The notes under the pieces were generated by a model, which worked only from the letters and a program-made list of their open reading frames with translations, searched no databases and was not told the origin of the DNA. The translations under genes were made by a program, and so were the position numbers. DNA of 42,850 nt from a virus, in the IMG/VR virus record IMGVR_UViG_3300025131_000093, positions 1 through 42,850 of that record. One strand, written 5' to 3'. Shown here in pieces: positions 1-42,850 of this stretch. Numbering within the stretch: position 1 is the first letter of the stretch; the number at the start of each line of letters is the position of its first letter.

Positions 1-181
1 TCGCGTGGGTGGGGGGGGGGTTCGCGCTCCTGACGTGGACCAGGGTCTGCACCGGTGACTCTGGCCTGGATCAACGCAGTCCGGATCGAGTCAAGCCGAT
101 CGGCGAATGACGCCGGCTCCTGGGTGCTGTCCTGGGCGCCGGATCCCTGGCCTGGGCTGTCCTGGGCGCTACGATCGCCGC
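1..181. repeat. Terminal direct repeat, left copy
   Basis: These 181 bases recur at 42670-42850. Aligned base by base they differ at only two places, positions 51 (A here, G there) and 55 (G here, C there). The copy begins with a run of ten G at 11-20, a typical assembly break point. A minus-strand gene reads in frame through the join, so this is best explained as overlap of a circular or circularly permuted genome. True terminal repeats as in T7-like phages would normally be identical. The two mismatches may be strain variation. Confidence 0.9.
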
Positions 182-572
182 CGACCGGACCCACCTGGGC
201 CAGATCGAGGCCACCACGAATGGCGATGCGCTCTGCGAGATCGGTGACCAGTTCCGCGAGGCTCCCGTCTTCGATCGCCCTGGGTAGATCGGCGCCGTCC
301 TGGTCAGCCCTGGCCCGGTCGCGGATCGGATCGAGGAAGCGCGCAAGCCAGGCGTCCTGTGCCCGCCACGATCGCCCGTTGATTGCCTGATCTGTGAACG
401 CCTGGTAAACCTCTGCGGCCTGGTCGATCGCGGCGCCTTCGATCGCCTGGGCTAGCCTGATAGCCTTGTCCTGGTCGACGCGTTGAAGGGCACCGACCGG
501 CTCGATCGGTGCGTCCTGGTCGGCGTCCTGGTCTACCTGGCCGGCGTTGTCCTGGTCATCAGCTGCATTCAT
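1..572 (-). CDS. Junction-spanning hypothetical protein, N-terminal part
   Basis: Partial in this window. It starts at ATG 572 with an AGGAG site about nine bases upstream and stays open to base 1. In the circular molecule it continues at 42669 and stops at 42468, giving 258 codons (257 residues), an exact multiple of three. The protein starts MNAADDQDNAG and is acidic and very rich in Asp-Gln-Asp and Gln-Ala steps. A helical middle part (about residues 40-130) includes a segment with SLAELVTDLAERIA. No family recognised. Nearly every glutamine is CAG, preceded by a codon ending in C and followed by G, so the coding strand is packed with CCAGG. It is the first gene of the minus-strand operon that ends at the terminator near 40833. 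Confidence 0.75.
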   Translation of the reverse strand, partial: MNAADDQDNAGQVDQDADQDAPIEPVGALQRVDQDKAIRLAQAIEGAAIDQAAEVYQAFTDQAINGRSWRAQDAWLARFLDPIRDRARADQDGADLPRAIEDGSLAELVTDLAERIAIRGGLDLAQVGPVGGDRSAQDSPGQGSGAQDSTQEPASFADRLDSIRTALIQARVTGADPGPRQEREPPPHPR

Positions 573-756
573 TTGAGCGGCTCCTGGTCGGGGTCCTGTG
601 TTGGGCAGATGTGTTGCACACAAGTGCAACTCGTTTGCACCTGGTCGGTCGGTTCAGTCCAGGCGCGGCGATCCGGCCAGGCGGTTTCCTGGTCAGCTCC
701 GAACCAGGCACCGGCTAACCGTCTCTGTGAGATTAGCAATTGACGCGAACCTGGAC
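60..756. other. Dense oriented CCTGG motif cluster
   Basis: I count about 22 CCTGG on the plus strand between roughly 60 and 756, and about four CCAGG. Roughly one CCTGG would be expected by chance at this base composition. Many are in the longer form TCCTGGTC. They lie in the minus-strand gene ending at 572 but continue through the non-coding 573-756 stretch, so the protein sequence alone does not explain them. CCWGG is also the Dcm/EcoRII recognition sequence. The role is unknown; packaging or replication signals or a protein-binding array are possible. Confidence 0.6.
613..640. promoter_or_regulatory. Inverted repeat GTTGCAC-ACAA-GTGCAAC, candidate operator
   Basis: A perfect 7-base inverted repeat (613-619 and 624-630, spacer ACAA) is followed by another half-site, GTTTGCAC, at 633-640. 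It lies between the minus-strand junction gene (start 572) and the plus-strand promoter at 740-768, where an operator for divergent control would be expected. No matching second palindrome was found elsewhere by eye. A regulator-binding role is inferred from symmetry and position only. Confidence 0.45.
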
Positions 757-768
757 AAGTCGTATCTT
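726..768 (+). promoter_or_regulatory. Early plus-strand promoter with TGTGAGATTAGC element
   Basis: A -35 box TTGACG (740-745), a 17-base spacer and a -10 box TATCTT (763-768) fit a sigma70 promoter reading into the early operon that starts at 842. Immediately upstream, 726-737 is TGTGAGATTAGC. The same 12-mer sits at the same place relative to the -35 box at 40265-40276, and a close variant is at 8182-8191. Just downstream, 782-799 holds CTCCG-N8-CGGAG with TGTGAGAG on the other strand. This looks like an operator-controlled early promoter. Confidence 0.6.
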
Positions 769-841
769 TCCTCAGTATATACTCCGCTCTCACACGGAGC
801 GCGCGAGTATGGACGGCCAACCCGTAATGAAGGAGACCCAC

Positions 842-1144
842 ATGTCCGAAGACACCAGAATGGTCGCGATAGACTTGGGAGACGGTTTCCCGGCTACGTT
901 GACGATCGATCAGGCCCGCGCCCTTCGCGGCGCCTTGTCTTCCCTCAACTTGGTCGACAATACGTCCCTGGTCACGTGGGAAGACGAGCGTCATACCAAG
1001 ATTGTCGATGGGGTGCAAATTTGGGCCGAGGTATCGACGCGTCCGGCGGTCGACCTGGACACGCCGCTCGATCTCGAAGTCCTGGACTTCCCCGCGCTCG
1101 CGGGCTGCACGAATGGCGCGATTCACAAAGACACACGCTCCTAA
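842..1144 (+). CDS. Hypothetical early protein (100 aa)
   Basis: First gene of the plus-strand early operon. The ATG at 842 is chosen because AAGGAG lies six bases upstream; the frame is open further upstream, but no other start has such a site. The protein begins MSEDTRMVAIDLGDGF, a strand-like start followed by a helix (TIDQARALRGALSSL) and then alternating strands. It looks like a small soluble alpha/beta protein. I do not recognise a family. It is followed by the repeated hairpin at 1151-1178. An early accessory or host-takeover role is inferred only from position. Confidence 0.7.
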   Translation: MSEDTRMVAIDLGDGFPATLTIDQARALRGALSSLNLVDNTSLVTWEDERHTKIVDGVQIWAEVSTRPAVDLDTPLDLEVLDFPALAGCTNGAIHKDTRS

Positions 1145-1150
1145 CCACCT

Positions 1151-1178
1151 GGCGCCCGAGTCTACACGATCGGGCGCC
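1151..1178 (+). repeat. Intergenic hairpin repeat, copy 1
   Basis: GGCGCCCGA, a ten-base loop, then TCGGGCGCC: a 9-bp GC-rich stem. All 28 bases, loop included, are repeated at 1511-1538. It falls between the stop at 1144 and the start at 1199 and is followed by TTCATTTT, a poor U-tract. It may slow RNA polymerase, stabilise or process the messenger, or act as a weak terminator. Confidence 0.75.
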
Positions 1179-1198
1179 TTCATTTTGGAGTCTATGAT

Positions 1199-1501
1199 AT
1201 GACCGCTTTTCTTACCAGGAACGAACGCCAGACCGTGATCCGCGCGCTTGAGGTACTTGAAGCCGGCGCGACGATCGGCGCATGTGGTGGCGTATCGGTT
1301 CCCTTGACGCCGCGCCCACCTTCCGAAGATCAGAGGCGCGCAAGACGTTTGCTGATGGAGTGGAATTTAGGCGACACTTTTGGTCTGGTTCGCCAGGCAA
1401 TGAGACACCACGACGGGCAAAGTTGGGAGGACACACACGCGGCGATTGCTCGCCAGGATAACGCAACAAGCGAGCGCAACGCGGCAACGCCCGAACTCTA
1501 A
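1199..1501 (+). CDS. Hypothetical early protein (100 aa)
   Basis: ATG at 1199 with GGAG eight bases upstream. The protein begins MTAFLTRNERQTVIRALEVLE and is largely helical at its start. It has a glycine-rich turn (IGACGGVSVPL) near residue 30 and a charged C-terminus rich in Ala, Asn and Glu. No catalytic motif or known family is evident. It is flanked on both sides by identical 28-base hairpins, so its messenger segment may be separately processed or expressed. Confidence 0.7.
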   Translation: MTAFLTRNERQTVIRALEVLEAGATIGACGGVSVPLTPRPPSEDQRRARRLLMEWNLGDTFGLVRQAMRHHDGQSWEDTHAAIARQDNATSERNAATPEL

Positions 1502-1510
1502 CCCAATCCA

Positions 1511-1538
1511 GGCGCCCGAGTCTACACGATCGGGCGCC
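1511..1538 (+). repeat. Intergenic hairpin repeat, copy 2
   Basis: Exact second copy of the 28-base hairpin at 1151-1178, again placed just after a stop codon (1501) and before the next ribosome binding site. It is followed by CTTTTCTT, a slightly better U-tract than copy 1. Identity of the loop as well as the stem suggests recent duplication or sequence-specific recognition. Confidence 0.75.
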
Positions 1539-1558
1539 CTTTTCTTGAGGTATCGAGC

Positions 1559-2014
1559 ATGGCAGACGTAACGAACGACCCCGTATTTAACGAAGGCGTA
1601 AACCCGCGCCGGCTCCCGGTCCCGGTCCCTGGAGACTTCGACACGACATATCGAGACACGCCCGACGATAAGCCGCGCGCGCTTTATGTCAAGGACCACA
1701 CCGACGAATACAAGCCGCTCCGCGAGTTCTACGGACATACCGAGGTGTACGTGAACACCCACCTGGTTGACCAGGCAAGCGGCGGACCTGAGGAGGGTGG
1801 TTGGTGGTACACGTACGGCGTACCGTCTAGCTCGATCCGCACGACGGCAGACCAGGCCGCGAAGATTTACGCGCAAGAGATGCAGACCGCAGAACGCGAG
1901 AACGCGGACCGCCGTTCTGATATTGGCTCCGTACTGAGTGAAGGACGCTATGAGGTTACACTTGAGACTCGATACGGCGCCATCTTCCCCCAGGAAAGGC
2001 CGCGGTATGAGTAA
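1559..2014 (+). CDS. Hypothetical phage protein ending ERPRYE (151 aa)
   Basis: ATG at 1559 with GAGG about nine bases upstream. It has a hydrophilic N-terminus with a proline-rich stretch (RRLPVPVPGDF), an aromatic glycine motif GGWWYTYG near residue 80, a helix, and a C-terminus reading GAIFPQERPRYE. A similar C-terminal pattern occurs, from memory, in small uncharacterised phage proteins. Function unknown; no catalytic residues are evident. Its stop overlaps the start of the next small gene, indicating coupling. Confidence 0.75.
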   Translation: MADVTNDPVFNEGVNPRRLPVPVPGDFDTTYRDTPDDKPRALYVKDHTDEYKPLREFYGHTEVYVNTHLVDQASGGPEEGGWWYTYGVPSSSIRTTADQAAKIYAQEMQTAERENADRRSDIGSVLSEGRYEVTLETRYGAIFPQERPRYE

Positions 2015-2147
2015 AATATGGGCATTCCTTAACGGCGTGAAAGGATACCGCCTGGACTACACCCTTGCATATCGCGGGGCTGATCTGATCGCTTACGAAT
2101 GGGGGCGGGAAATCGCCCACCGTTTAACTTTTCGGAGATTTGACTAA
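2007..2147 (+). CDS. Small hypothetical protein (46 aa)
   Basis: ATG at 2007 overlaps the end of the previous gene by eight bases (TATGAGTAA). An AGGAAAGG site lies upstream, within that gene. The product begins MSKIWAFLNGVKGYRLDY and is basic and aromatic, with no membrane segment long enough to be convincing. The overlap, ribosome binding site and tight packing support it as a real gene. No family recognised. Confidence 0.55.
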   Translation: MSKIWAFLNGVKGYRLDYTLAYRGADLIAYEWGREIAHRLTFRRFD

Positions 2148-2164
2148 AAAGCGAGGAACCCATT

Positions 2165-2500
2165 ATGAATAGCCACATCGACCACGGCGCCGGCGGTACC
2201 ATGTTTGCCGGCGCCCAGGCTGTCGAAGTGTTCAGGCTTATCACCTTAAAAAGCGGGATCAAGTTAGAGGCTTGCGGGATCAAAGCGAAACGCGGCCAGA
2301 CGTGCCGCTCGATTGCTCGCAAGCAATACGGCATCAAAGGCAACGCCGCGCGCCAAGTGGAGCAGATCGACGCACTTATAGACCAGGCGCGCGCCCAGGT
2401 TCCGGAGTACCATGACGGCGCCCTGGTTAAACCTACTGAGCTTCCGGCCCTTCCTGAGATCACCCATCCGATCGACTTTGGTGCGGAGCCGAGCGGATGA
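2165..2500 (+). CDS. Hypothetical early protein (111 aa)
   Basis: ATG at 2165 with GAGGA nine bases upstream. The middle of the protein (AVEVFRLITLKSGIKLEA, then GQTCRSIARKQYGIKGNAAR) is basic and helical. The C-terminus is proline-rich. The segment around residues 45-75 could bind nucleic acid, but I do not recognise a domain. The stop overlaps the next start (ATGA), so it belongs to a coupled run of early genes. Confidence 0.7.
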   Translation: MNSHIDHGAGGTMFAGAQAVEVFRLITLKSGIKLEACGIKAKRGQTCRSIARKQYGIKGNAARQVEQIDALIDQARAQVPEYHDGALVKPTELPALPEITHPIDFGAEPSG

Positions 2501-2682
2501 AGAAATGTATACAACGCATGTTCCCCTTCGACGGGTGCGATCCGTCGAAGGTGGAACTTTGGGATCTCGGGACGAGGTACGAGGTACGACGCAATGGGCG
2601 CAGGATCTGGCAGAGCAACTTCTATACGGCGACGTGTTACGCGCGCGCCTATGAACGATACACGGAGGAATTAAGCAAATGA
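2497..2682 (+). CDS. Small hypothetical protein (61 aa)
   Basis: Starts at ATG 2497, overlapping the previous stop by four bases (ATGA), and ends in a four-base overlap with the next gene. Sequence MKKCIQRMFPFDGC, then VELWDLGTRYEVRRNGRRIW, suggests a small beta-hairpin or SH3-like fold followed by a tyrosine-rich helix (CYARAYERYTEEL). Function unknown. Both overlaps strongly support a real coupled gene. Confidence 0.7.
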   Translation: MKKCIQRMFPFDGCDPSKVELWDLGTRYEVRRNGRRIWQSNFYTATCYARAYERYTEELSK

Positions 2683-3149
2683 GCGACACAACAACCGAAC
2701 AGCCGACATGTGACGAACGGGTGCAGGGCGCGCTTGATTCACGGATGGCAGACCTGAAAGCGATGTATCGAGCGCACGAAACCGACAACGACACCCTGGT
2801 TGAGTTCTTAGAGGGTCAAGGGATCGACGTTCGATCACTTCTGGAACCGCACGTCCTAGAAGAGAACGCGCGCGAAGAGATGTACAACTACGGCCTGGCC
2901 TTTGACTACGTGACGCCTGGCACATTCGACAATGATGCGGGGTATTGGCGTTATCAGATTAGCTATGGTGGCCCGTCTGAAGAGTTGCGGTTCTATGGTC
3001 CCGATCGCGTTGACTTCGTTTATCTCAACTGGTTCGACGGCGCGACCAGGCGTTTAAACGGCGACGATCTAGAAACGGCGAAGGCCATGTGGGATGACTT
3101 CAACGAGTGCGGGACCATCGAGCAGGTACGGAAGGACGCCGAACAATGA
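2679..3149 (+). CDS. Conserved hypothetical phage/plasmid-type protein (156 aa)
   Basis: ATG at 2679 overlaps the preceding stop (ATGA). The central segment YGLAFDYVTPGTFDNDAGYW, followed by RYQISYGGPSEELRFY and an LNWFDGA motif, resembles, from memory, a widespread uncharacterised family carried by phages and plasmids. The N-terminal half is helical and acidic; the C-terminal half is a beta-sandwich-like part with many aromatics. No active site is assigned. It ends in a four-base overlap with the zinc-ribbon-like gene. Confidence 0.75.
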   Translation: MSDTTTEQPTCDERVQGALDSRMADLKAMYRAHETDNDTLVEFLEGQGIDVRSLLEPHVLEENAREEMYNYGLAFDYVTPGTFDNDAGYWRYQISYGGPSEELRFYGPDRVDFVYLNWFDGATRRLNGDDLETAKAMWDDFNECGTIEQVRKDAEQ

Positions 3150-3433
3150 GCGAGGGCGCCAGGACGTTTACGGAGCGGTTCGCGGAATACTCCGAGGGGT
3201 ACCACTTAATGCCTGGTCTGGTCGAGGATTGCTCCGATTGCGGCGAGGATGATACGGACGAGTTCAGCTGTCAGCAATGTGAAGGTTGCGGGTCGAGGCT
3301 CGCCGGATCGCGGCACGTTTGCCACTCGTTTGTAGAAGAGGGCAACCCACGCAAGGGGCTTATGCATTGGTCCGTCTGTTGTGACTGCCTGATGTATATC
3401 GCAAACGGCGATATACCAGAAGGCGAAGAGTAA
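3146..3433 (+). CDS. Cysteine-rich zinc-ribbon-like protein (95 aa)
   Basis: Starts at ATG 3146, overlapping the previous stop. It carries a dense set of metal-ligand-type residues: CSDCG near residue 29, CQQCEGCG near 42, HVCH near 57 and VCCDC near 77. This suggests one or two zinc ribbons or knuckles. The protein is acidic, which argues against simple DNA binding and rather for protein-protein contact, perhaps with a host enzyme. The precise family is not recognised. It is followed by a GC-rich hairpin at 3446-3474. Confidence 0.75.
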   Translation: MSEGARTFTERFAEYSEGYHLMPGLVEDCSDCGEDDTDEFSCQQCEGCGSRLAGSRHVCHSFVEEGNPRKGLMHWSVCCDCLMYIANGDIPEGEE

Positions 3434-3445
3434 ACCAACGAAAGG

Positions 3446-3474
3446 GCGCCGGCTGCTTGGGACGGAGCCGGCGC
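3446..3474 (+). promoter_or_regulatory. Intergenic GC-rich hairpin before 3481
   Basis: GCGCCGGCT (3446-3454), an 11-base loop and AGCCGGCGC (3466-3474) form a 9-bp stem directly before the ATG at 3481. There is no U-tract, so it is not a standard terminator. The only GGAG near the next start is inside the hairpin, so folding could hide that ribosome binding site. Confidence 0.6.
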
Positions 3475-3480
3475 AAATTT

Positions 3481-3663
3481 ATGAACATCCCCAATATCGA
3501 CACCTGGATACACGGCGACCACGACACAATGCCGGATTGTGAATTGACCAGGAAACAACGTGAAGCGATCGAGCGCGAACGCCGCGATCAGATCCGGCGC
3601 GACATAGAAACGGAGAACAATGTCGACAGTCAAAGAACAGATTCTGAAGATGCCCAGAGGTGA
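3481..3663 (+). CDS. Small hypothetical protein (60 aa)
   Basis: ATG at 3481 directly follows a GC-rich hairpin that would sequester the only nearby GGAG. The protein MNIPNIDTWIHGDHDTMPDC has a charged coiled helix after residue 22 (TRKQREAIERERRDQIRRDI). It overlaps the better-supported next gene by 44 bases. It is real if the charged helix is meaningful, but translation may be weak or controlled by the hairpin. No family recognised. Confidence 0.5.
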   Translation: MNIPNIDTWIHGDHDTMPDCELTRKQREAIERERRDQIRRDIETENNVDSQRTDSEDAQR

Positions 3664-3829
3664 ATTTAACATGCTAGTGAATAGCCGAAACGACGAGCAG
3701 AGCGACGCGATACGCGCGGCCTGGATCGCCTGGATCGACACGCAGAAGGACACACCGAAAAGCACCCGTGAAGCCTGGTATGGATTCCAGGCATACCGGA
3801 AGTCATTACCACCTGGAGCGCAGATATGA
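3620..3829 (+). CDS. Small hypothetical protein (69 aa)
   Basis: ATG at 3620 with GGAG five bases upstream, a strong start. The product begins MSTVKEQILKMPRGEFNML and has a helical core with tryptophans (IRAAWIAWIDTQKD). No known domain. The last codons overlap the next gene (ATGA). Tight packing supports expression as part of the early operon. Confidence 0.7.
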   Translation: MSTVKEQILKMPRGEFNMLVNSRNDEQSDAIRAAWIAWIDTQKDTPKSTREAWYGFQAYRKSLPPGAQI

Positions 3830-4083
3830 GCGAACGAGACATGACCCTTTATGACGTTCCGTATGGATCGCACTTCTACTTTCACGATAAACCCCCCCAA
3901 GAAAACGTCAGCCGGCCCAACCTGTACGCGAAGGTGCAAGGCACGGTGCAGAAACTACTCGCCGACCAATCAGCATACAGCACTTGGGACGGCAAGGCGA
4001 AAGGGGAACGGATGGGCGCCGAGCTACTTTACAGGCGATGCGACACACCCGTCCACGTCACCAACTTCAGAGGCCTGGAATGA
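3826..4083 (+). CDS. Hypothetical early protein (85 aa)
   Basis: ATG 3826 overlaps the previous stop by four bases. The protein starts MSERDMTLYDVPYGSHFYF and appears mainly beta-stranded, with short aromatic strands and a C-terminal CDTPVHVTNF strand. The size and strand pattern fit a small SH3-like or OB-like fold, but this is only an impression. It ends in an ATGA overlap with 4080. Confidence 0.7.
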   Translation: MSERDMTLYDVPYGSHFYFHDKPPQENVSRPNLYAKVQGTVQKLLADQSAYSTWDGKAKGERMGAELLYRRCDTPVHVTNFRGLE

Positions 4084-4280
4084 GGCCGGCCCCAAGAGCA
4101 GAGATCGAGCGACCGCCGCCCGAACCAGACATTCGCGTCCTGGTCTTTCTCAACCGCGCAGACCACGAAAGGATCAAAGTTCTCGCGCGCAAGCAACAGA
4201 TACCAGGCGCCGGCCACAACGGTGCGGTCAGTGCCTTTTTTCGCCACCTGGAACACGCCATATTGGAGGATTGGGAATGA
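4080..4280 (+). CDS. Possible ribbon-helix-helix DNA-binding protein (66 aa)
   Basis: ATG 4080 overlaps the preceding stop. After a proline-rich start the pattern is one strand (DIRVLVFLN), a helix (RADHERIKVLARKQQ), a glycine turn and a second helix (AVSAFFRHLEHAI). This is the order of Arc/CopG-type ribbon-helix-helix repressors, and the size fits. If correct, it is a candidate regulator of the phage promoters. Identification rests on secondary-structure pattern only. Confidence 0.6.
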   Translation: MRPAPRAEIERPPPEPDIRVLVFLNRADHERIKVLARKQQIPGAGHNGAVSAFFRHLEHAILEDWE

Positions 4281-4519
4281 AGAAATTTATGTACTACGCT
4301 CTGACGATGAACCAGTGGGGCGCCGGCCTCACGATCGAGGAAGCGAAGAAGAACATGAACGCCGACGGCACGGCAGCACCGAAGAAACACGGATATATCA
4401 TCCACAAGTTCAGCAAGCTCACCACGATCGACGTGGACCCGATCGACGGGCGCCCTTCGGTGGAGAAGGGAGTGACGGCAGAGGTGGTCGAGGATACACG
4501 AAAGGTCAAAGCGATATGA
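4277..4519 (+). CDS. Hypothetical early protein (80 aa)
   Basis: ATG 4277, overlapping the previous stop, with GGAGG-like sequence (TTGGAGGA) in the coding end upstream. The sequence MKKFMYYALTMNQWGAGLTI reads as strand, then helix (EEAKKNMNADG), then strands, a compact alpha/beta fold. Function unknown. It overlaps the final early gene by four bases. Confidence 0.7.
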   Translation: MKKFMYYALTMNQWGAGLTIEEAKKNMNADGTAAPKKHGYIIHKFSKLTTIDVDPIDGRPSVEKGVTAEVVEDTRKVKAI

Positions 4520-4983
4520 TCGGAGCAGAGAACTACCTACACCCAGCGATCCGGAAAGAGATTAACAACCTGGAAGAACGGCGCGTGAAGTTGACGCAGT
4601 TGTCACCGCACTACGCTTGCGTCGAGGCGATCGCTGAAGAACTGTTCTCCTACCACAGCATGTGGACCTACTCTGGTTCGATTCAGTTAAACTTCTACGT
4701 CAACGCCTACACCGACTCGATCCCGCTCCTGACCGCCCTGGCCCACGCCGGTTGGAAGCGGATCGGGAAGATGGAAAAGACTTGCGCGTCCTTCAAGTGG
4801 AAGTTGGAATATGAGGCGCGTCCTGGTCTGATGATTCCCCTGGAAGTGAGTGGCGATGTTCGCGGCGAGGATGCCGAAGGCGCAACTTGCAGACGTGTCC
4901 AGGTTGGAACCAAGACGAGCGAGATTCCGATCTACGAGATTCAGTGCGACGATCCGGCAGAGGCGAGCGCCCTGGCTAACTAG
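4516..4983 (+). CDS. Hypothetical early protein (155 aa), last gene of the operon
   Basis: ATG 4516 overlaps the preceding stop (ATGA). It has an N-terminal helix with NNLEERRVKLTQLSPHYA, a central alpha/beta section (SGSIQLNFYVNAYTDSIPLL) and a helix GWKRIGKMEKTC. The last third is acidic with alternating strands. No family recognised. It is followed at 5003-5037 by the bidirectional terminator that closes both this operon and the convergent recombination operon. Confidence 0.75.
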   Translation: MIGAENYLHPAIRKEINNLEERRVKLTQLSPHYACVEAIAEELFSYHSMWTYSGSIQLNFYVNAYTDSIPLLTALAHAGWKRIGKMEKTCASFKWKLEYEARPGLMIPLEVSGDVRGEDAEGATCRRVQVGTKTSEIPIYEIQCDDPAEASALAN

Positions 4984-5002
4984 GCGAGCGGATCGGAAAG
5001 CA

Positions 5003-5037
5003 AAAGGCCGGCGGGGTAGCTAACCCTGCCGGCCTTT
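5003..5037. terminator. Bidirectional intrinsic terminator
   Basis: AAAGGCCGGC plus an inner GGGG pairs with CCCT plus GCCGGCCTTT around a seven-base loop, giving about 14 pairs. A-rich and T-rich flanks lie on the two sides. It sits between the convergent stops at 4983 (plus) and 5087 (minus), exactly where one terminator can serve both operons. Confidence 0.85.
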
Positions 5038-5086
5038 CTATTCCCTGTCGCCGTCGCTATCTCCCCTAATATCGACGACTAAGGGC

Positions 5087-6145
5087 TTACTTCAGATGTT
5101 CCAAACAGGCAAGCGCCTGGTCCTCAGTCATTGTGTCGATCGGCTCCTTGCATTCCTCGATGCCGATCAGTTCCCACACGCCCTCGACGTTCTTTCCCTT
5201 TGTCGCCGACCTCAGACGACCCAACGTGAGTTTCTTGATCGGCTTCGGCTCCGCGTCCTTGCGCTTCTTGATCTCGGTCTGCATCCAATCGAGTCCCTTC
5301 TTGGCTCGATCCATCGACCACTCTGCACAGTTCTCAAAGTCGGCTTTCTCTTTCTCGGTCCAAACGTGTGACTTCGACAGCTTCAGAACGAGTTTACGCT
5401 GAGCGTCCGTGATCCGCAGTTCGACATCGTATTCCGGCACAGTCTGACCCTGGTCAGGTGGATAGTTCGTGCCAGGATCGGGATGATCGAAAGCGGGAGC
5501 CTCCCCACGTCCCACAGCACTCCCGCCTCGACCATCGTCATCTGCGCTCGCCGCGACCCCCACAGCCGCTTTAAGCGTATATCTCTGAAGGTAGGTTACA
5601 GCCGACCCGACCGCTTGGATCGCGTTCTTGCTTCCCGAGCTGTCCACAGGACCGCCTAGCGTAGTCTCTTCACTGTGACCGTCCTTGTGGGACAGGATAC
5701 AGGTCACTTTGACCGTGCCAGGAGTCTCCGTATCGGTGCGCCATCGGAACGACAGGCCGTGTTCAGCCAGGACAGGCGCCAACTGATCGACCACGCCGGC
5801 CAGATCCTCGTACTTGTAGTGCGTTGACTTGTAGTCCACCGACTTGTTCTTGAACAGGATCGGCAAGTTATCGCGCATAGCTGAGAGTGCAACCGAAAAG
5901 GCCGTAGCCGCTTCGGATGCCTTCCACCGCTCCGCGAGGCTGACCAGACGTTCAAGCACCTCGACATCGGCGCCGGTCTGGACGGCCTGACTCAGCATTA
6001 CCATCGGCGTGAGTGCCGTGTGAGGGACAGGCTTCAACTGCTCGATCGGGATCGCGCCGTCCGGTTGCCCGTCCGTGCTATCCGATGGCGGCGGCTCCTG
6101 GCCCATCGCCACCGCATCCATTACTTCAATCTCTTTAGCTTCCAT
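5087..6145 (-). CDS. erf: ERF-family single-strand annealing protein
   Basis: Recombinase of the ERF superfamily, which anneals complementary single strands and typically works with a partner exonuclease in phage replication or genome circularisation. The core spans about residues 75-215: SAMRDNLPILFKNKSVDYKS, then YKYEDLAGVVDQLAPVLAEH, a strand region with VTCILSHKDGHSEET, and NAIQAVGSAVTYLQRYTLKA followed by an acidic ADDDG. The C-terminal third is charged and variable, as is usual. The ATG at 6145 is preferred over GTG 6151 because GGAGG lies six bases upstream. It overlaps the exonuclease gene, supporting a coupled pair. A circular or permuted genome fits such a system. Confidence 0.9.
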   Translation of the reverse strand: MEAKEIEVMDAVAMGQEPPPSDSTDGQPDGAIPIEQLKPVPHTALTPMVMLSQAVQTGADVEVLERLVSLAERWKASEAATAFSVALSAMRDNLPILFKNKSVDYKSTHYKYEDLAGVVDQLAPVLAEHGLSFRWRTDTETPGTVKVTCILSHKDGHSEETTLGGPVDSSGSKNAIQAVGSAVTYLQRYTLKAAVGVAASADDDGRGGSAVGRGEAPAFDHPDPGTNYPPDQGQTVPEYDVELRITDAQRKLVLKLSKSHVWTEKEKADFENCAEWSMDRAKKGLDWMQTEIKKRKDAEPKPIKKLTLGRLRSATKGKNVEGVWELIGIEECKEPIDTMTEDQALACLEHLK

Positions 6146-7094
6146 CGCCACCCTCCGTCAAGTTCAGCACCTTCTCGATCGGCCCATCTCCTGGACCAAG
6201 ATCCTCACACGCACCACGGTACGCGCAGTAATCACAGTTCCAATCCTTACCAGGCGTGTGATCCTGAACAGGGATCAGACCGTTGCCGTAGTCGTTCACA
6301 CAGCTGACCAGGCGCGACATGGCTATCTCGGCCTCGGGAGCGTCGAAGTTCACGACCTCGACCGCGATCGCCTTGCCATCGGGGTTGCGACCTACGAAGA
6401 TTCCCCGCGTGACCGGCACAGCCCGATTCCGGAGCGCGAGCATGTAGCACTGCATCTGCTGATAGTATTCGTGCTGAACGCGCTGAAGCGTTCCCTGCCT
6501 CAGAACATACCCGCCATCTTCCTCGCGGACCACGTTCTCCATCGGCGCGTCCCGCTTGAATCCCTTCTTGCCGATGCACAGCTTCCACGGATAGTCGCCG
6601 AGCTTCTTGTGTTCAAACAGAGCGACCGACAGGAAGCTGTGAGGATACTCCGAATACACGACCTCGCGAACGTCAGGCTCGTTTTTCTCCGTGCCGACGA
6701 ACAGATCCCAATACACCAGGCCGTCGATGTGACCGTGAACGGACTCAGCATCGCCCGTCGTGTAGAAGTGAACGGCGAACTGATCGTTGACGATCGGGAT
6801 GCCGCCCCTCTGCAAACAGGCGCGCGTGTCGGCCTCCATCAGATGCCCGACGCGGAACGTATCAAGCTGTGATGCCGTGGTCACAGACGGCTCAAAATCT
6901 TCCCTGCGGTTCAGCACGATCTGACGCCGACACCGCCCTGCAGAACTCATACCGACATACCGACGCGGTGGATCGGCGCCGTAGACAGATGTGATGTAGG
7001 AGTCAGGCAATCGCAACCCCTTTTCCCAACCGGCGAGGATGGCGAGCGCCAATTCCTCATTATCGCAGTCCGGATGCTTGTCGATTATCTCCAC
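6135..7094 (-). CDS. Cas4/RecB-like PD-(D/E)XK exonuclease with Fe-S cysteines
   Basis: Motifs match the Cas4/AddB-like nuclease group. In 319-residue numbering there is an early cysteine (AGRCRRQ, C55), a catalytic aspartate in HGHIDGL (D124), an E-x-K motif in FEHKKLG (E161, K163), a Q-x3-Y helix (QQMQCY) and a C-terminal C-x2-C-x5-C (287, 290, 296). The four cysteines would hold an iron-sulfur cluster. The enzyme probably resects DNA ends to feed the ERF protein encoded next. The GTG at 7094 follows AAAGGG at a good distance. An ATG at 7133 would add 13 residues but overlap the previous gene by 74 bases. Confidence 0.88.
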   Translation of the reverse strand: MEIIDKHPDCDNEELALAILAGWEKGLRLPDSYITSVYGADPPRRYVGMSSAGRCRRQIVLNRREDFEPSVTTASQLDTFRVGHLMEADTRACLQRGGIPIVNDQFAVHFYTTGDAESVHGHIDGLVYWDLFVGTEKNEPDVREVVYSEYPHSFLSVALFEHKKLGDYPWKLCIGKKGFKRDAPMENVVREEDGGYVLRQGTLQRVQHEYYQQMQCYMLALRNRAVPVTRGIFVGRNPDGKAIAVEVVNFDAPEAEIAMSRLVSCVNDYGNGLIPVQDHTPGKDWNCDYCAYRGACEDLGPGDGPIEKVLNLTEGGDGS

Positions 7095-16564: not shown

Positions 16565-18660
16565 CAGGTACCTTTCGGGGGTCGGCTGTACTGATAAGAA
16601 GCAATGGCGCTAGCCAGATTGCCCCACGGATTCGACTGCGGCTGATTGAGGATGTTGCCCAACCCCTGTGTCGCGCCTTGAAGCATCGAGTTCTGCTGAG
16701 TGTTCCCGCCTTGACCTTTCGCATACATATCTAAGCCGACATCTTCCTGATACTGCGTCCACGCATCGGCGCCCTGCTGTGAATTCAGGAAGTCGTAGAA
16801 GTTCTGGTTGTTCGCGTTGAACACGCCCTGCTGGATGCCGATGTCGTTGGCCTTAATCGCCTGCGCCTGGTCGAGTCCGCCAGACAGGTTGTCGATAATC
16901 TGCTGGGTGAAGTTTCTGAGATCCGCCAGACGGTTCGAGCGCATATCCTCCGATGTCTCTGCTTCCTTCATCCCGAAGCCGATGCGCGCCTGTGCGAGCT
17001 GATCGAGATAGCCCTTGTTCATCTGATCCGTCAGCGCCCCGCGGAACGATCCGGAGCCTAGCTTATTCGTGGCTGAGTATCGGTTGACGATGTTCTCCAT
17101 CTCCTTATCGCTCGACCGCTTCAGCATCCCTTCCAGTTCGTCGAGTATGCTACCCTTTCCCGCGCTGTATGGATTCGGAGCACCGATCGCGTTCACATAC
17201 TCTGACCCGAGCATGTCGATCGCGCCGGTGTTGCCCAAGATCATGTTCATCAACGCATCACGCAACACTCCGGTGTCGTCCACGATCGCCGGCGGATCGG
17301 CCAGAGGGTCGAAGGTTGAGTAGTCGTAGGTCGCCGGCGGGTCGCCAGTGGAACCGTCATTACCGAGAAGATCCGGATCGTCGTTGTTTCCCTGGCCGCT
17401 CACGCCGCCACCGTGGGCGCCGAGCGCGGTATCGAGGGACTGAAGATCCTCGTCGCTCGCGTCACCCTGGAAGAAGCCGCCGCCGGCGTCGATGATCTGC
17501 TGATCCGTCGGTTGGTCTTGACCAGGTATGTCGTTCGGGTTGCTCTCTCCGATTCTCAGGAAGTCGGCCATGTCGATCGTGCCGCTGCCATCCACATCCC
17601 ACCCAGGTTGCCAGTTTTCGTCGTTTTCCGTAGACCCGAAAGCCGCCTTGAACATATCGACATCCACAGGCCGGCCATCGACCATGACGATGTTCTGGTC
17701 TGAGCCATCGTTGGCGAGGCCACCCGTCGTGTCTCCGCTGTTCTCCAAGCTCAGTAGGTTGTCGTAGCCACCGACATCGCCGCCGACCGTCACCCTGTCC
17801 TCCGGACTCAGCTCGTCCGTGCCGATCGAGCTTCCGAGGATCGGGTTCGCCGGCGTGAACAGTTCGGGATAACTCTCCGTGGTGTAGAAAGTCTCCCCCA
17901 TCTCTCTCAGGTCGCCAGTGAACAGATCCGGAGACAGACCAAGCGTTTCGTACTCGCTTCGGTCAAGCCTCTGGTCGTCCAACACGTCGGCCAGTGTGCC
18001 AGCATCGAGGCCCATCTGGTCGATGATGTAGCTGAGTTGGTCCATCCCGATCAGTCTGTCGTCAGGTAACTGGATGTTCATAGAGCCACCACTTCCCGAG
18101 TCATTGTTGGATGCAGTCCCATTGTCGTTAGTAAGGGTCGGCTGCACGGGCATCGTCGACACCGTGCCGGTGGACCCCGTTCCCCCGGTCCCTGCCGGCG
18201 GTCCCTCTACTTCTTCTCCGAGAGTGTTGAAGTATCTAGTGGTGCCGTTTGACGTGCTTGCCCGTATCACCAGACTTCCGTCAGGGTGTCGAGCGGGGAT
18301 GGAAGACTGATCGACCGGATTGGGAGCTGTTACTGGCGCGTAGGTGGTCTGTGTTTCGGGTGCGGGTTTAGTCGAGTCAGGGACAGCCTCGGGCGCAATC
18401 GCCGCAGCAGTCGGTGTCGGCGCAGCTTTCGGTGTCGGCGCAGCAGTCGGTGTCGGCGCAGCAGTCGGTGTCGGCGCAGCAGTCGGATAAAACATGAAGG
18501 ACCCACCGATCTGCTCCGCCTTCGACAATACGTGCTGAAGGTCGTTGGGGTTACTCCACTCACCGCCATCGACCGCCATCCGCCGCCTGACTCTCGCCAC
18601 CAAAGCCGGATCGAGCTGGTCGATGCTATCAACGCGTTGATTTCCGACATAGTAAGCCAT
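16564..18660 (-). CDS. Probable ejection protein with PTPTAA repeats and EF-hand-like loop (698 aa)
   Basis: The N-terminus (MAYYVGNQRVDSIDQLDPAL) is followed near residues 60-85 by a PTPTAA repeat encoded by an 18-base tandem repeat. A long Asp/Gly/Ser-rich region follows. Near residues 354-367 the sequence DVDGSGTIDMADFL matches a calcium-binding EF-hand or dockerin loop with ligand spacing D-x-D-G-S-G-x-I-x-x-x-D. The C-terminal 250 residues are helical (ELEGMLKRSSDKEMENIVNR) and end QYSRPPKGT, as expected of an injected protein. The start immediately follows the previous stop without a clear ribosome binding site, so coupling is likely. Confidence 0.65.
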   Translation of the reverse strand: MAYYVGNQRVDSIDQLDPALVARVRRRMAVDGGEWSNPNDLQHVLSKAEQIGGSFMFYPTAAPTPTAAPTPTAAPTPKAAPTPTAAAIAPEAVPDSTKPAPETQTTYAPVTAPNPVDQSSIPARHPDGSLVIRASTSNGTTRYFNTLGEEVEGPPAGTGGTGSTGTVSTMPVQPTLTNDNGTASNNDSGSGGSMNIQLPDDRLIGMDQLSYIIDQMGLDAGTLADVLDDQRLDRSEYETLGLSPDLFTGDLREMGETFYTTESYPELFTPANPILGSSIGTDELSPEDRVTVGGDVGGYDNLLSLENSGDTTGGLANDGSDQNIVMVDGRPVDVDMFKAAFGSTENDENWQPGWDVDGSGTIDMADFLRIGESNPNDIPGQDQPTDQQIIDAGGGFFQGDASDEDLQSLDTALGAHGGGVSGQGNNDDPDLLGNDGSTGDPPATYDYSTFDPLADPPAIVDDTGVLRDALMNMILGNTGAIDMLGSEYVNAIGAPNPYSAGKGSILDELEGMLKRSSDKEMENIVNRYSATNKLGSGSFRGALTDQMNKGYLDQLAQARIGFGMKEAETSEDMRSNRLADLRNFTQQIIDNLSGGLDQAQAIKANDIGIQQGVFNANNQNFYDFLNSQQGADAWTQYQEDVGLDMYAKGQGGNTQQNSMLQGATQGLGNILNQPQSNPWGNLASAIASYQYSRPPKGT
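18410..18486 (-). repeat. 18-base tandem repeat encoding PTPTAA
   Basis: Four consecutive units of GTCGGTGTCGGCGCAGCA (plus-strand reading; the second unit begins TT instead of GT) with a partial fifth. On the minus strand they encode Pro-Thr-Pro-Thr-Ala-Ala, with one Thr replaced by Lys. Such a repeat is expected to change copy number between isolates and probably forms a flexible linker. Confidence 0.85.
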
Positions 18661-36672: not shown

Positions 36673-36749
36673 CAGCACCTACTGTGCACGTTTTCAGTTA
36701 GCCGCGTGAATGCCACAGCCGACAACCACAGGCAATCTGTATCGCTCAA
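36672..36749 (-). CDS. Possible very short peptide gene (25 aa)
   Basis: A TTG at 36749 overlaps the stop of the nuclease gene and follows GGAGG by six bases. The frame then runs MSDTDCLWLSAVAFTRLTEN and five more residues to a TGA whose last base is the first base of the next ATG (36672). Both junctions look coupled, but 25 residues is too short to be sure. It may act as a translational bridge. Confidence 0.3.
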   Translation of the reverse strand: MSDTDCLWLSAVAFTRLTENVHSRC

Positions 36750-37570
36750 ATCAGTCCTCCCATCGTAGTTGATTCGCGCTCCATCTTCCTGAGCCGTATC
36801 GCCTTGTCCATCAAATCCTCATCCTCATCTTCCGGTTCCTCGTCGCGAATATACGGCTCCGCGAAGTCTGCCATCGACGGGTCGCCGATGTTCTCTACTG
36901 CGCGTGTTTTGAATGCCGGCGCGTGACCGGCCTCACGTAGTTCCTCTGCAATCGGGAAGTAGAGGATGCCCTGGATCGCGAGCATCCACCCGAAGATCGC
37001 ATCATCTTTGGCACCTCTGATATGCTCGTATTTGCCACGCTTGTTCCTTTGAAAGACCGACATCTGGTCGAGAATCAGCGACGATCGGACGTGGTAGAGG
37101 TTGTCGCGCATCCCCGTTCGCGCGTCGTTCACTAGCTTGTTGCGAGTGAGCGCGTTGGTGTTCCACCCTAACTTTTCCTTCCGCGTGTCCGAGATGTCTG
37201 CCCTGTAAAACCACTCGTAATGGAGGTTAGGATATTCCAGATTCTTGAGGACTTGAAGCGGCGTAATATCCTTGTTGTTCTCGATGAGGACGTAGGACCA
37301 GTTGTACCATTTCCCGACGAGATAACAGAGTAAACCAAACTCGTCTGGGTCGATGGAGCCGGTGAACTCACAACACTGATTTCCTGTGTCTGACCGCAGT
37401 ACGCACAGGGAACTGTCATCACCGTGTTCAAGTCCTTCTGCGACATCGGCTCCGAGAGAATAGGTTTTTCCTGGCTCCGGTCGCTCCCAAACTTTGAGCA
37501 AAATGCGCGCATCGCCTTCGACTCCGAAAAGGGATTCGACATCGTATTCTATTTTGAGGGCTTCAGGCAT
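36746..37570 (-). CDS. Terminase large subunit, nuclease half (274 aa)
   Basis: RNase H-like nuclease domain of a large terminase, encoded without the ATPase. Catalytic acids visible: D42 in SLGADVAEG, E97 in VLIENNKD and D189/D190 in GAKDDAIFG, in the order and spacing of TerL nucleases. WNTNALTRNKLVNDARTGM also matches the family pattern before the last acid. It would cut the concatemer during headful packaging. The partner ATPase is encoded separately at 38268-39368, with lysis genes between. The start at 37570 overlaps the endolysin stop by eight bases with no obvious ribosome binding site, implying coupled translation. Confidence 0.85.
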   Translation of the reverse strand: MPEALKIEYDVESLFGVEGDARILLKVWERPEPGKTYSLGADVAEGLEHGDDSSLCVLRSDTGNQCCEFTGSIDPDEFGLLCYLVGKWYNWSYVLIENNKDITPLQVLKNLEYPNLHYEWFYRADISDTRKEKLGWNTNALTRNKLVNDARTGMRDNLYHVRSSLILDQMSVFQRNKRGKYEHIRGAKDDAIFGWMLAIQGILYFPIAEELREAGHAPAFKTRAVENIGDPSMADFAEPYIRDEEPEDEDEDLMDKAIRLRKMERESTTMGGLI

Positions 37571-37976: not shown

Positions 37977-38268
37977 ACCACGCTCCGTATTTGCCGGCGA
38001 TGAGTACGCCGAGTCTGAAGAACGCAAGCGAGGCTACGCCGGCAATAGCCGTGACGATCGCCAGACCCTTCCTTGTGAATACGCTCGGTCGAGGGACGAG
38101 CCACCCGATGATTGCTACATAGAAGTAGAAGTATCGTGTGACGATGTGCCAGAGGTCGTGCTTGGTTCCGGGGTGAATAATCGGGTCGCCCCACGTTGCA
38201 TCCCCATAGCCTTTGGCGATCGACATCACGCAGATCGCGAGCAGTGAGCAGTATAGATCCCTCAACAT
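37969..38268 (-). CDS. Probable holin, multi-span membrane protein (99 aa)
   Basis: ATG 38268 shares a base with the stop of the terminase ATPase (TGATG); a GTG one codon earlier is possible. It has three hydrophobic stretches: residues about 1-18 (LYCSLLAICVMSIA), about 46-60 (YFYFYVAIIGWLV) and about 70-92 (GLAIVTAIAGVASLAFF). It directly precedes the endolysin, the usual holin position. The segment between spans one and two contains HPGTKHDLWHIVTRY. Holin function is inferred from context and topology. Confidence 0.65.
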   Translation of the reverse strand: MLRDLYCSLLAICVMSIAKGYGDATWGDPIIHPGTKHDLWHIVTRYFYFYVAIIGWLVPRPSVFTRKGLAIVTAIAGVASLAFFRLGVLIAGKYGAWYG

Positions 38269-39368
38269 CACGCCGCCTCGTTGAAGATGATGCGCTTCCG
38301 TGTTTCGTAGTGATGCTGCGTAGCCGCGCGCGCGAAGTATTCTGCGTCTGGCTCGATCTCTGCCTCGTATTCTTGCTCGTCTAGGAAACCGAGCGTTGGG
38401 TCCACCATGTGAACCTCCCTCTGTTCCTTGATAAGATCCATCGCGAAAGCCAATCGGATACCCGATGGCTGAAATAGACCGTATGTACGCGTATCACGGC
38501 TGTCCTCGTCATACGAGGCGATGATTCTCGTTTTTTCTTCTTCGGGGATGATCCAGTCTGGAACGTCGAGAAGTGTCCAGAAGTGAAAGCGCAAATCTGG
38601 AATTTCCGCACGACGTGTGTAGAGACTTGGATGAATCCAAGAGATGCCAACACTCTCACGGTATATAGGCGTAAACGACCGAATGATTTCACCTGGTGGT
38701 CCGCCCACACCGGCAGTCCTCGCAACACATTCGTCGTCCACGTCCTTTGGCTGTTCTTCGTCCAGGTGGACGATCTCTTGCTTGGTTCCCTGAAACGCTG
38801 CGGCTCCCTGACTTGAATACCTAAAACGGATGACAGAATTGAACGGTGGCTTAAATACGATGACGTTATTTTTCCATCCACGCTCAACCGTGTAGTCGCA
38901 AGAATCCGTGAGTAGATACTCCGGACAAAGTTCGTGATACTTCGCTTGAACGATTTCAATGGATGTGTCCTCGGTGTCAGAGACAGTCCAGACGTTCACT
39001 GGCGGTAGGAAGCGTTCGCTCGCTTGCTTGGTGACGGGATTCATCCCGATGCATCCGGAGATCACTTCTGCGGCTGACGAGTAGGTCTTGGCGCAACGGT
39101 TTCCGGTGACGACGATGCGTTGCTTGGATGTGTCCAGGTGGAACTTCAGGGGCGAGGATTTGATGTCGCCGTTGGGTAGGGCGCCTTCGGGACAGTCGAA
39201 GGGCATATAGTTGTAGATGGGATCTGCCGCGACGTGATCCATGTAGTATCGGAAGTTGGGGATGGTGCGTTCGGCTCGTTCGGAAAGCTCGTTCGCCTCA
39301 TTCGGATACTTCTGAATCATAAAGCTCAACATGGTCACGGCTGACCATATATCGCCTATGCTCGCCAT
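38268..39368 (-). CDS. Terminase large subunit, ATPase half (366 aa)
   Basis: ATPase motor part of a large terminase. Walker A is TGNRCAKTYS (G89-T95; the phage-type G-N-R-x-A-K-T with Ala in place of the usual Gly before Lys). Walker B is EIVHLDEEQ (199-206, catalytic Glu after Asp). The coupling motif is SFTP (231-234). The protein ends at FNEAA after about 120 further residues and lacks the nuclease acids, which are found in the separate 274-residue protein at 36746-37570. It starts at ATG 39368, sharing a base with the previous gene's stop. It is part of the packaging operon driven from 40257. Confidence 0.88.
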   Translation of the reverse strand: MASIGDIWSAVTMLSFMIQKYPNEANELSERAERTIPNFRYYMDHVAADPIYNYMPFDCPEGALPNGDIKSSPLKFHLDTSKQRIVVTGNRCAKTYSSAAEVISGCIGMNPVTKQASERFLPPVNVWTVSDTEDTSIEIVQAKYHELCPEYLLTDSCDYTVERGWKNNVIVFKPPFNSVIRFRYSSQGAAAFQGTKQEIVHLDEEQPKDVDDECVARTAGVGGPPGEIIRSFTPIYRESVGISWIHPSLYTRRAEIPDLRFHFWTLLDVPDWIIPEEEKTRIIASYDEDSRDTRTYGLFQPSGIRLAFAMDLIKEQREVHMVDPTLGFLDEQEYEAEIEPDAEYFARAATQHHYETRKRIIFNEAA

Positions 39369-42075: not shown

Positions 42076-42490
42076 CACCGCCTTCCTCTCCAGACGCCGA
42101 CTCACCAGTTACCAACGGCTCCACCAAATTCAAATTCAGAACACGCTCAACCTCATTCAACCGAACCGACAAACGCTCGATCACCACCCCAAACTTCTCA
42201 ACAGCATCCATCCGATCCTGGATAGCATCAACAAACGAAGCCGTAAACTCGTCCACATACTTCATCCTCCCCAACACCTTCTCAAAATTTCGATCGCATA
42301 TCTCCATCGACCGAATCAAGTCCTTCACGAACCTCAGCAACGTCCCATCCACAGGCGGATTCTCTGCCACCCACGCCCGAAATACCGACGCACTACTCGT
42401 CAACGCATCCTTACCACCATCACCCGAACCACCCACCAACGCCTTGCCCTCCCCTGACTTCTCCATCCTACGACGCTCCTTCCGATTCAT
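42065..42490 (-). CDS. Hypothetical helical protein (141 aa)
   Basis: ATG 42490 with GGGAGG five bases upstream. MNRKERRRMEKSGEGKALVG is very basic; then a helical core (LRFVKDLIRSMEICDRNFEK; MKYVDEFTASFVDAIQDRMD) and a coiled segment (IERLSVRLNEVERVLNLNLV). A basic head plus coiled coil suggests an oligomer that may bind nucleic acid. The start lies 23 bases inside the end of the junction gene. Function unknown. Confidence 0.65.
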   Translation of the reverse strand: MNRKERRRMEKSGEGKALVGGSGDGGKDALTSSASVFRAWVAENPPVDGTLLRFVKDLIRSMEICDRNFEKVLGRMKYVDEFTASFVDAIQDRMDAVEKFGVVIERLSVRLNEVERVLNLNLVEPLVTGESASGEEGGDGI

Positions 42491-42850
42491 CACTACCTCC
42501 CTGTGAACGACGATCTCGCATCATAGCTTCCCTGGCAACATCACCACCTTCGCTCGTTTCCTCCGTGAACTCCGCATCCTCTATCACTTCGTGACCCCCA
42601 ATATTATCAGAAAATCGTCCGTGGGGTGGTTCCATAGTCTCCCTTCCCCTCCCCCCGGGGGCCGCGCCGTCGCGTGGGTGGGGGGGGGGTTCGCGCTCCT
42701 GACGTGGACCAGGGTCTGCGCCGCTGACTCTGGCCTGGATCAACGCAGTCCGGATCGAGTCAAGCCGATCGGCGAATGACGCCGGCTCCTGGGTGCTGTC
42801 CTGGGCGCCGGATCCCTGGCCTGGGCTGTCCTGGGCGCTACGATCGCCGC
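42468..42850 (-). CDS. Junction-spanning hypothetical protein, C-terminal part
   Basis: Continuation of the gene that starts at 572, open at the right edge of the window; 42670-42850 duplicates the left end. After a proline run (GAA followed by CCC codons, from the G10 tract) the tail contains PPHGRFSDNIGGHEVIEDAE and ends in an acidic, serine- and glycine-rich stretch with stop at 42468. The stop lies 23 bases inside the next gene, so the two are probably translationally coupled. The low-complexity C-terminus suggests a disordered tail. Function unknown. Confidence 0.7.
   Translation of the reverse strand, partial: GDRSAQDSPGQGSGAQDSTQEPASFADRLDSIRTALIQARVSGADPGPRQEREPPPHPRDGAAPGGRGRETMEPPHGRFSDNIGGHEVIEDAEFTEETSEGGDVAREAMMRDRRSQGGSDESEGAS
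42670..42850. repeat. Terminal direct repeat, right copy
   Basis: Second copy of the 181-base terminal repeat, offset 42669 from the left copy. The two differences fall in adjacent codons of the junction gene on the minus strand: one is silent (GGT/GGC) and one is Thr to Ser (ACC/AGC). Selection on the protein is therefore compatible with both versions being real variants. Confidence 0.9.

Follow-up and report, generated by a model that had tools for sequence, protein, structure and literature searches.

The CCWGG island and its neighbouring genes

The window, by which we mean the whole 42,850-nucleotide stretch of DNA analysed here (IMGVR_UViG_3300025131_000093), is a small tailed-phage genome. 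Its contig closes upon itself, and the closure falls within an island of CCWGG sites. The ends of the contig overlap, and the two mismatches in the overlap lie at 51 and 55 in one copy and at 42720 and 42724 in the other. The sole close relative found, G003 (IMGVR 3300002514_000246), is the same phage, and its contig ends at window position 50, one base before the first mismatch. The mismatches and this stopping point suggest that strain variation broke the assembly. Since G003 ends at 50, the evidence for the island is one contig and its 181-base self-overlap. The features of the locus, with gene boundaries that are ORF choices of the present analysis, are as follows.

1–572, minus strand: junction gene, N-terminal 190 codons with the ATG at 572, rich in Gln, Asp and Ala; the gene resumes at 42669 and runs downward
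42468–42669, minus strand: junction gene, C-terminal part, with the stop at 42468
40–754, unstranded: CCWGG island, 27 sites in 715 bases (22 CCTGG and 5 CCAGG, plus strand)
573–841, unstranded: non-coding divergent junction with 7 CCWGG (4 CCTGG, 3 CCAGG), where 0.76 are expected and 0 of 5000 shuffles reach the count
740–768, plus strand: sigma70-like promoter match TTGACG-17-TATCTT, a match to the consensus only, with the CCTGG of 750 in the spacer
842–4983, plus strand: early operon made up of small genes, over which the CCWGG density levels off at about 10 per kb, as seen by shuffles, density and cluster scan
38268–39368, minus strand: N-terminal portion of the terminase large subunit, lying about 3 kb away from the island
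42640–42690, unstranded: tract of C and G runs forming the left boundary of the island; the same tract is 1–20 in the overlap
42670–42850, unstranded: repeat of 1–181 with 2 mismatches, which closes the contig

The junction gene runs leftward across the contig ends, comprises 257 codons (774 bases) and holds most of the island. No relative was found for it, nor any Pfam match or match to a small terminase subunit, and the gene is not adjacent to terL. A single-sequence structure model had a pLDDT of 45, too poor for a structure search. The terminase large subunit appears split into two ORFs, 36746–37570 and 38268–39368, with small ORFs between them, and is annotated alike in the metagenomic podovirus ctLwi270.

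The sequence-only reading had put the number of CCTGG on one strand at about 22, and exactly 22 lie on the plus strand between 65 and 754; no other 5-mer of the genome is as clustered as CCTGG when counted on one strand in 700-base stretches. The first kilobase holds 28 CCWGG against 3.2 expected from the dinucleotide composition, and the successive kilobases hold 28, 12, 8, 10, 10, 5, 5 and 2. In a cluster scan the best cluster was 40–4975, with 68 of the 191 sites and a log-likelihood ratio of 37.4 against a maximum of 12.1 in 60 random sets. This cluster is the junction plus the early operon, and its end coincides with the end of the operon. With the island removed, a cluster at 967–6312 was still prominent (18.3 against a maximum of 10.4 in random sets). 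The density of 26.0 per kb in 573–841 falls to about 10 per kb in 842–5050, and in 5051–42467, where an equal density would have spoken against a special array, there are only 2.6 per kb in non-coding and 3.3 per kb in coding sequence.

The array had been described as having one orientation, which did not hold. The plus strand of 40–754 also carries CCAGG, at 40, 348, 659, 677 and 704, and the orientation outside genes is balanced, with 4 CCTGG and 3 CCAGG in 573–841 and 8 and 6 in 573–5050. As the orientations are mixed outside genes, the bias towards one strand stems from coding, and the repeat unit is the palindromic CCWGG and not an oriented CCTGG. Most flanking positions carry less than 0.4 bit, with one at 0.92, and the core is the exact 5-mer. 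A cooperative binding array of the iteron or terminase-binding type would have its sites in phase and a consensus that extends beyond the core; neither was found, the spacing of the sites having no power at 10.5 bases and only the codon period of 3.

Coding constraint and the CCWGG word

Could the protein have produced the sites? A disordered segment rich in Gln, Asp and Ala, written with CAG and C-ending codons, would give CCAGG as a by-product. Of the 20 Gln residues of the junction protein 19 lie within the first 181 codons, and all Gln codons but one are CAG. When synonymous codons were shuffled within the gene, 11.9 ± 2.3 CCWGG were obtained against the 21 present, a number reached in 2 of 20,000 shuffles; drawing codons from genome usage gave 8.7 ± 2.4 and permuting the codon order 5.3 ± 2.1 (0 of 20,000 each). 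The codon-shuffle comparison, set beforehand as a check, thus did not give similar counts (21 against 5.3–11.9). The protein, together with the codon usage of its gene, accounts for about half of the count within the gene and not for the remainder.

The neighbours of Gln are biased towards making the word. As stated in the sequence-only reading, most Gln codons are embedded as xxC-CAG-Gxx (15 of 20). The codon after Gln starts with G in 19 of 20 cases, where the gene average is 0.50 (P = 2e-5), and the codon before it ends with C in 15 of 20 against an average of 0.37 (P = 6e-4). Eight other residues used as controls showed no comparable pull on their neighbours. An enrichment in the early operon had also been noted and is confirmed, on the strand opposite to the junction gene: the 10 early ORFs contain 34 CCWGG against 11.0–16.5 under three shuffles (0 of 500 reach the count in each). 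The 39 late ORFs contain 116 against 99.2, 101.8 and 108.7, with 13, 26 and 126 of 500 shuffles attaining the observed count, so that any excess in late genes is small or absent.

With an excess beyond the shuffles and with the non-coding sites of the divergent junction, protein composition alone is largely refuted, and we regard it as a very improbable cause of the island. The shuffle excess, the Gln-neighbour bias and the non-coding excess together support a DNA word that bends the protein. The proposal that the motif shapes the protein thus stands for the excess and for the neighbours of Gln, but not for the half of the in-gene count that the protein and its codon usage supply. That the CCWGG sites are kept by selection or by a very specific DNA-level process is well supported.

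A neutral origin would not need a function. Biased repair, for example of the very-short-patch kind that converts CTWGG to CCWGG, or slippage within a terminal region prone to recombination could enrich the word, and G+C does climb along with CCWGG, in the window as well as in the terL clade described below. CTWGG is slightly low in the early and junction genes (CCAAG 7 against 10.2, CCTAG 1 against 2.9), but this shortfall of about 5 words stands against a CCWGG excess of about 26 in the same genes, so biased repair accounts for a small part only. Neither CCSGG nor most one-letter neighbours of the word are raised. Duplication of a longer unit was rejected as the main cause, the flanks of the sites being mostly unlike one another and holding little information. 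A neutral or mutational origin seems quite unlikely to us.

Within-gene synonymous shuffling of the early and junction genes placed two 5-mers at the top, CGATC (55 against 20.0) and CCAGG (55 against 28.7). In late genes CGATC is high too, and CCAGG is raised just slightly. The best cluster of GATC is 15 sites in 69–445, and CGATC clusters at 84–508, in the junction gene.

The identity of these two words favours a methylation mark, in which a CCWGG methylase of the host would modify the island and so time early transcription, replication or self-recognition. CCWGG is the exact Dcm/EcoRII site and CGATC contains the Dam site, while CCSGG is rare, with 24 on the genome, under expectation. A CCTGG also lies in the spacer of the promoter-like match at 740–768, but matches of this kind arise by chance (2 found where 0.5 are expected). 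C-5 methylase (PF00145) and MethyltransfD12 (PF02086) were each found in 0 of 6 phages, namely the window phage and five array-bearing phages, and a methylase encoded by the phage is rejected for these two families. On balance a Dcm-type mark is an unlikely reason for the island. Tolerance of Dcm-type enzymes, which had been taken as implied, is putative.

Position relative to the genome ends

The head and packaging proteins match those of Microbacterium phage Shocker, of Arthrobacter phages Brad and Jasmine, and of metagenomic podoviruses such as ctLwi270, at about 23–30% identity. Exact direct repeats are present at the ends of Shocker (484 bases), Brad (1549 bases) and Jasmine (1330 bases), where the structural and replication operons diverge; in ctLwi270 the early/late divergence lies close upstream of terL. 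By synteny with the terminal repeats of these three distant homologues, we infer that the island is likely to lie at the physical terminus, where the terminase would cut and the leading end would form. No CCWGG peak was found at the junction in any of six homologues (Shocker, Brad, Jasmine, DS1, ctLwi270 and ctEqG8).

Other words were considered as end marks in the same phages. A TTTACAGG cluster in Shocker, which seemed to mark the ends, was rejected, as it is no longer among the top words when only one copy of the terminal repeat enters the count. In Jasmine a CTATCC cluster beside the terminal repeat stays (12 against 0.6), and in Brad the top word clusters are no stronger than noise.

An island of the same word in a second lineage

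A CCWGG island is also present directly upstream of terL in a second, unrelated lineage. Four IMG/VR contigs of this clade, L079, L096, L106 and L067, were chosen by the motif and are therefore a biased sample; their first kilobase upstream of terL has 27, 32, 24 and 18 CCWGG per kb, and the counts drop farther out where the contig extends. DSL-LC04 (OR003939) and the loci L160–L239 were not chosen in this way. DSL-LC04, included solely for having the TerL closest to that of L079, has 17, 13, 6 and 6 CCWGG per kb. It is metagenome-assembled with a host that is only predicted, according to the accessible part of its description, which does not mention the island (PMC10611076).

A TerL search blind to the motif gave 80 loci, of which the 48 with at least 900 bases upstream were scored. 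Upstream of terL, L160 has 33, L161 19 and L162 15 CCWGG per kb, L178 and L171 have 10 and 9, and the other 43 have at most 6. When L160 is taken over its full length, the majority of its forward CCWGG triplets fall at 42.9–45.2 kb, just upstream of terL. Among TerL loci from MAGs, 16 of 17 were long enough upstream, and all of these stay below 10 CCWGG per kb over the first upstream kilobase. A scan for the pattern CCTGGTC is not counted as support; many of the matches listed were collagen-like or other coding repeats (16 loci inspected). The island is thus real in this lineage and bound to a clade, not a rule. For the sequence-only reading, which had suggested looking for the array in relatives, the outcome is divided, the six homologues being without a peak and an unrelated terL clade having an island.

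The islands of the terL clade resemble that of the window in having exactly the same word, at 15–33 per kb in the first kilobase, and in ending sharply on one side while thinning out on the other, both within genes and between them. They differ in lying directly beside terL, in their opposite orientation lean and in having no detected shared protein: the ORFs of the window gave no BLASTP match at E 1e-3 to the eight array loci. In the eight clade loci (L079, L096, L106, L067, L142 and L160–L162) non-coding CCAGG reads away from terL in 94 cases against 53, a lean that a purely palindromic reading does not predict.

A few relatives have other words in the same place. Upstream of terL, L172 has 25 AGCTC against 0.7, L193 has 12 CTGGGC against 0.7, and L150 has a dense array of CAGCTG/CCAGC. 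A word z above 8 occurred in 4 of the 48 upstream stretches and in none of the downstream ones, where the maximum was 7.9.

A possible role at the leading end

The presence of an island beside terL in an unrelated clade hints at a job at the end of the genome, and with the synteny described above it makes a link between island and genome end plausible. We rank first a role in packaging or end processing, to which we give a probability of roughly 40%, in which an end-handling protein would read the clustered CCWGG words. The terminase would cut at the divergent early/late junction and so form the leading end, and the CCWGG sites would be putative recognition words for the protein that handles this end. 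Such a step would read short palindromes, clustered within the first gene and possibly methylated, much as P1 reads Dam sites at its pac. Maintenance at the DNA level is the well supported part of this picture and the terminus the part deduced from synteny; packaging itself is a guess. Of the roles first put forward for the array, a terminus or packaging link is thus plausible, and a protein-binding array lacks the helical phasing.

The nearest known system, by analogy, would be the pac site of P1, reportedly the subject of work by Sternberg and Coulby in 1990. It has far fewer GATC sites, in a compact region partly in the pacA coding sequence. Both loci would have short palindromic methylase words clustered at the packaging end and partly inside coding sequence, and such a dense cluster is found here in the 27 CCWGG of 40–754. 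They differ in that P1 uses GATC in a compact site, whereas the window has 27 CCWGG in 715 bases followed by a 4 kb plateau, and packaging from it is putative. In P1, Dam methylation of pac is needed for packaging, according to the accessible part of PMC12707154. Several observations tell against this reading: an enrichment extending to 5 kb is too long for a compact pac site, and terL of the window is about 3 kb off the island and does not adjoin it. To these are added the six homologues with no peak at the junction, the lack of helical phasing, the low counts in 43 of 48 TerL relatives, the two methylase families not found, the junction gene with no small-terminase match, and the orientation lean of the terL clade.

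The kilobase-long tail favours a broader, distance-dependent pressure, Chi-like or related to entry. A host enzyme of the RecBCD/AddAB type, coming from a DNA end, could be slowed or marked by CCWGG, or a factor could act on the first-injected DNA, with selection strongest near the end and continuing through the early genes. The enrichment of the window, like that of the terL clade, decays over kilobases from one sharp edge, and the few relatives with another word in that place (L172, L193 and L150) are what host-specific words would give. Chi is directional, depends on its orientation and is spread over chromosomes. The non-coding sites of 573–5050, however, are in both orientations, 6 CCAGG and 8 CCTGG, and are confined to one region, and the orientation lean of the terL clade is opposite to that of the window. 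The likeness to Chi and other over-represented short words is that these too are short, over-represented and tied to end processing; in its accessible part, the proteobacterial Chi study restricts its tests to variants of the 8-base E. coli Chi (PMC8022716). It would seem improbable that end entry or a Chi-like process explains the island, in either of its two forms.

A more general possibility, which we put forward tentatively and consider somewhat unlikely, is that unrelated phages share a leading-end code in which the place is kept and the word is matched to the host and changes. The word would be CCWGG here and in the clade of DSL-LC04, and AGCTC, CAGCTG or CTGGGC in a few others; it would lie inside and between genes and be read by packaging, end-protection or methylation machinery.

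No description of CCWGG islands at phage ends was found in the open-access literature, subscription papers being mostly outside the scope of that search. If the packaging or end-processing role, or another function, applies, word density by itself could serve to locate the ends of uncultured phages and their signals for packaging or entry, and the junction gene would clearly exemplify a DNA signal that dictates the order of amino acids. The island also offers a connection between phage ends and Dcm-type sites that can be tested.

Other sequence features

Further elements lie in the junction and early region. An operator-like inverted repeat, GTTGCAC-ACAA-GTGCAAC, is found at 613–630 in the divergent junction. 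Two early genes are each followed by a stem-loop, at 1148–1187 and 1508–1547; the two copies are 88% identical, open with CCTGG/CCAGG and are followed by T-rich sequence, and no exact copy of their core was found among other viral contigs.

Over the whole window many 6-base palindromes are strongly avoided (counts on both strands), with 4 ATCGAT against 70 expected, 0 CTCGAG against 43 and 0 CGGCCG against 40.5. CCAGC is avoided in late genes, with 15 against 102 expected, and GATC is common genome-wide at 9.8 per kb. Of the 28 GCWGC sites of the genome, 5 are packed into 77 bases at 18404–18480.
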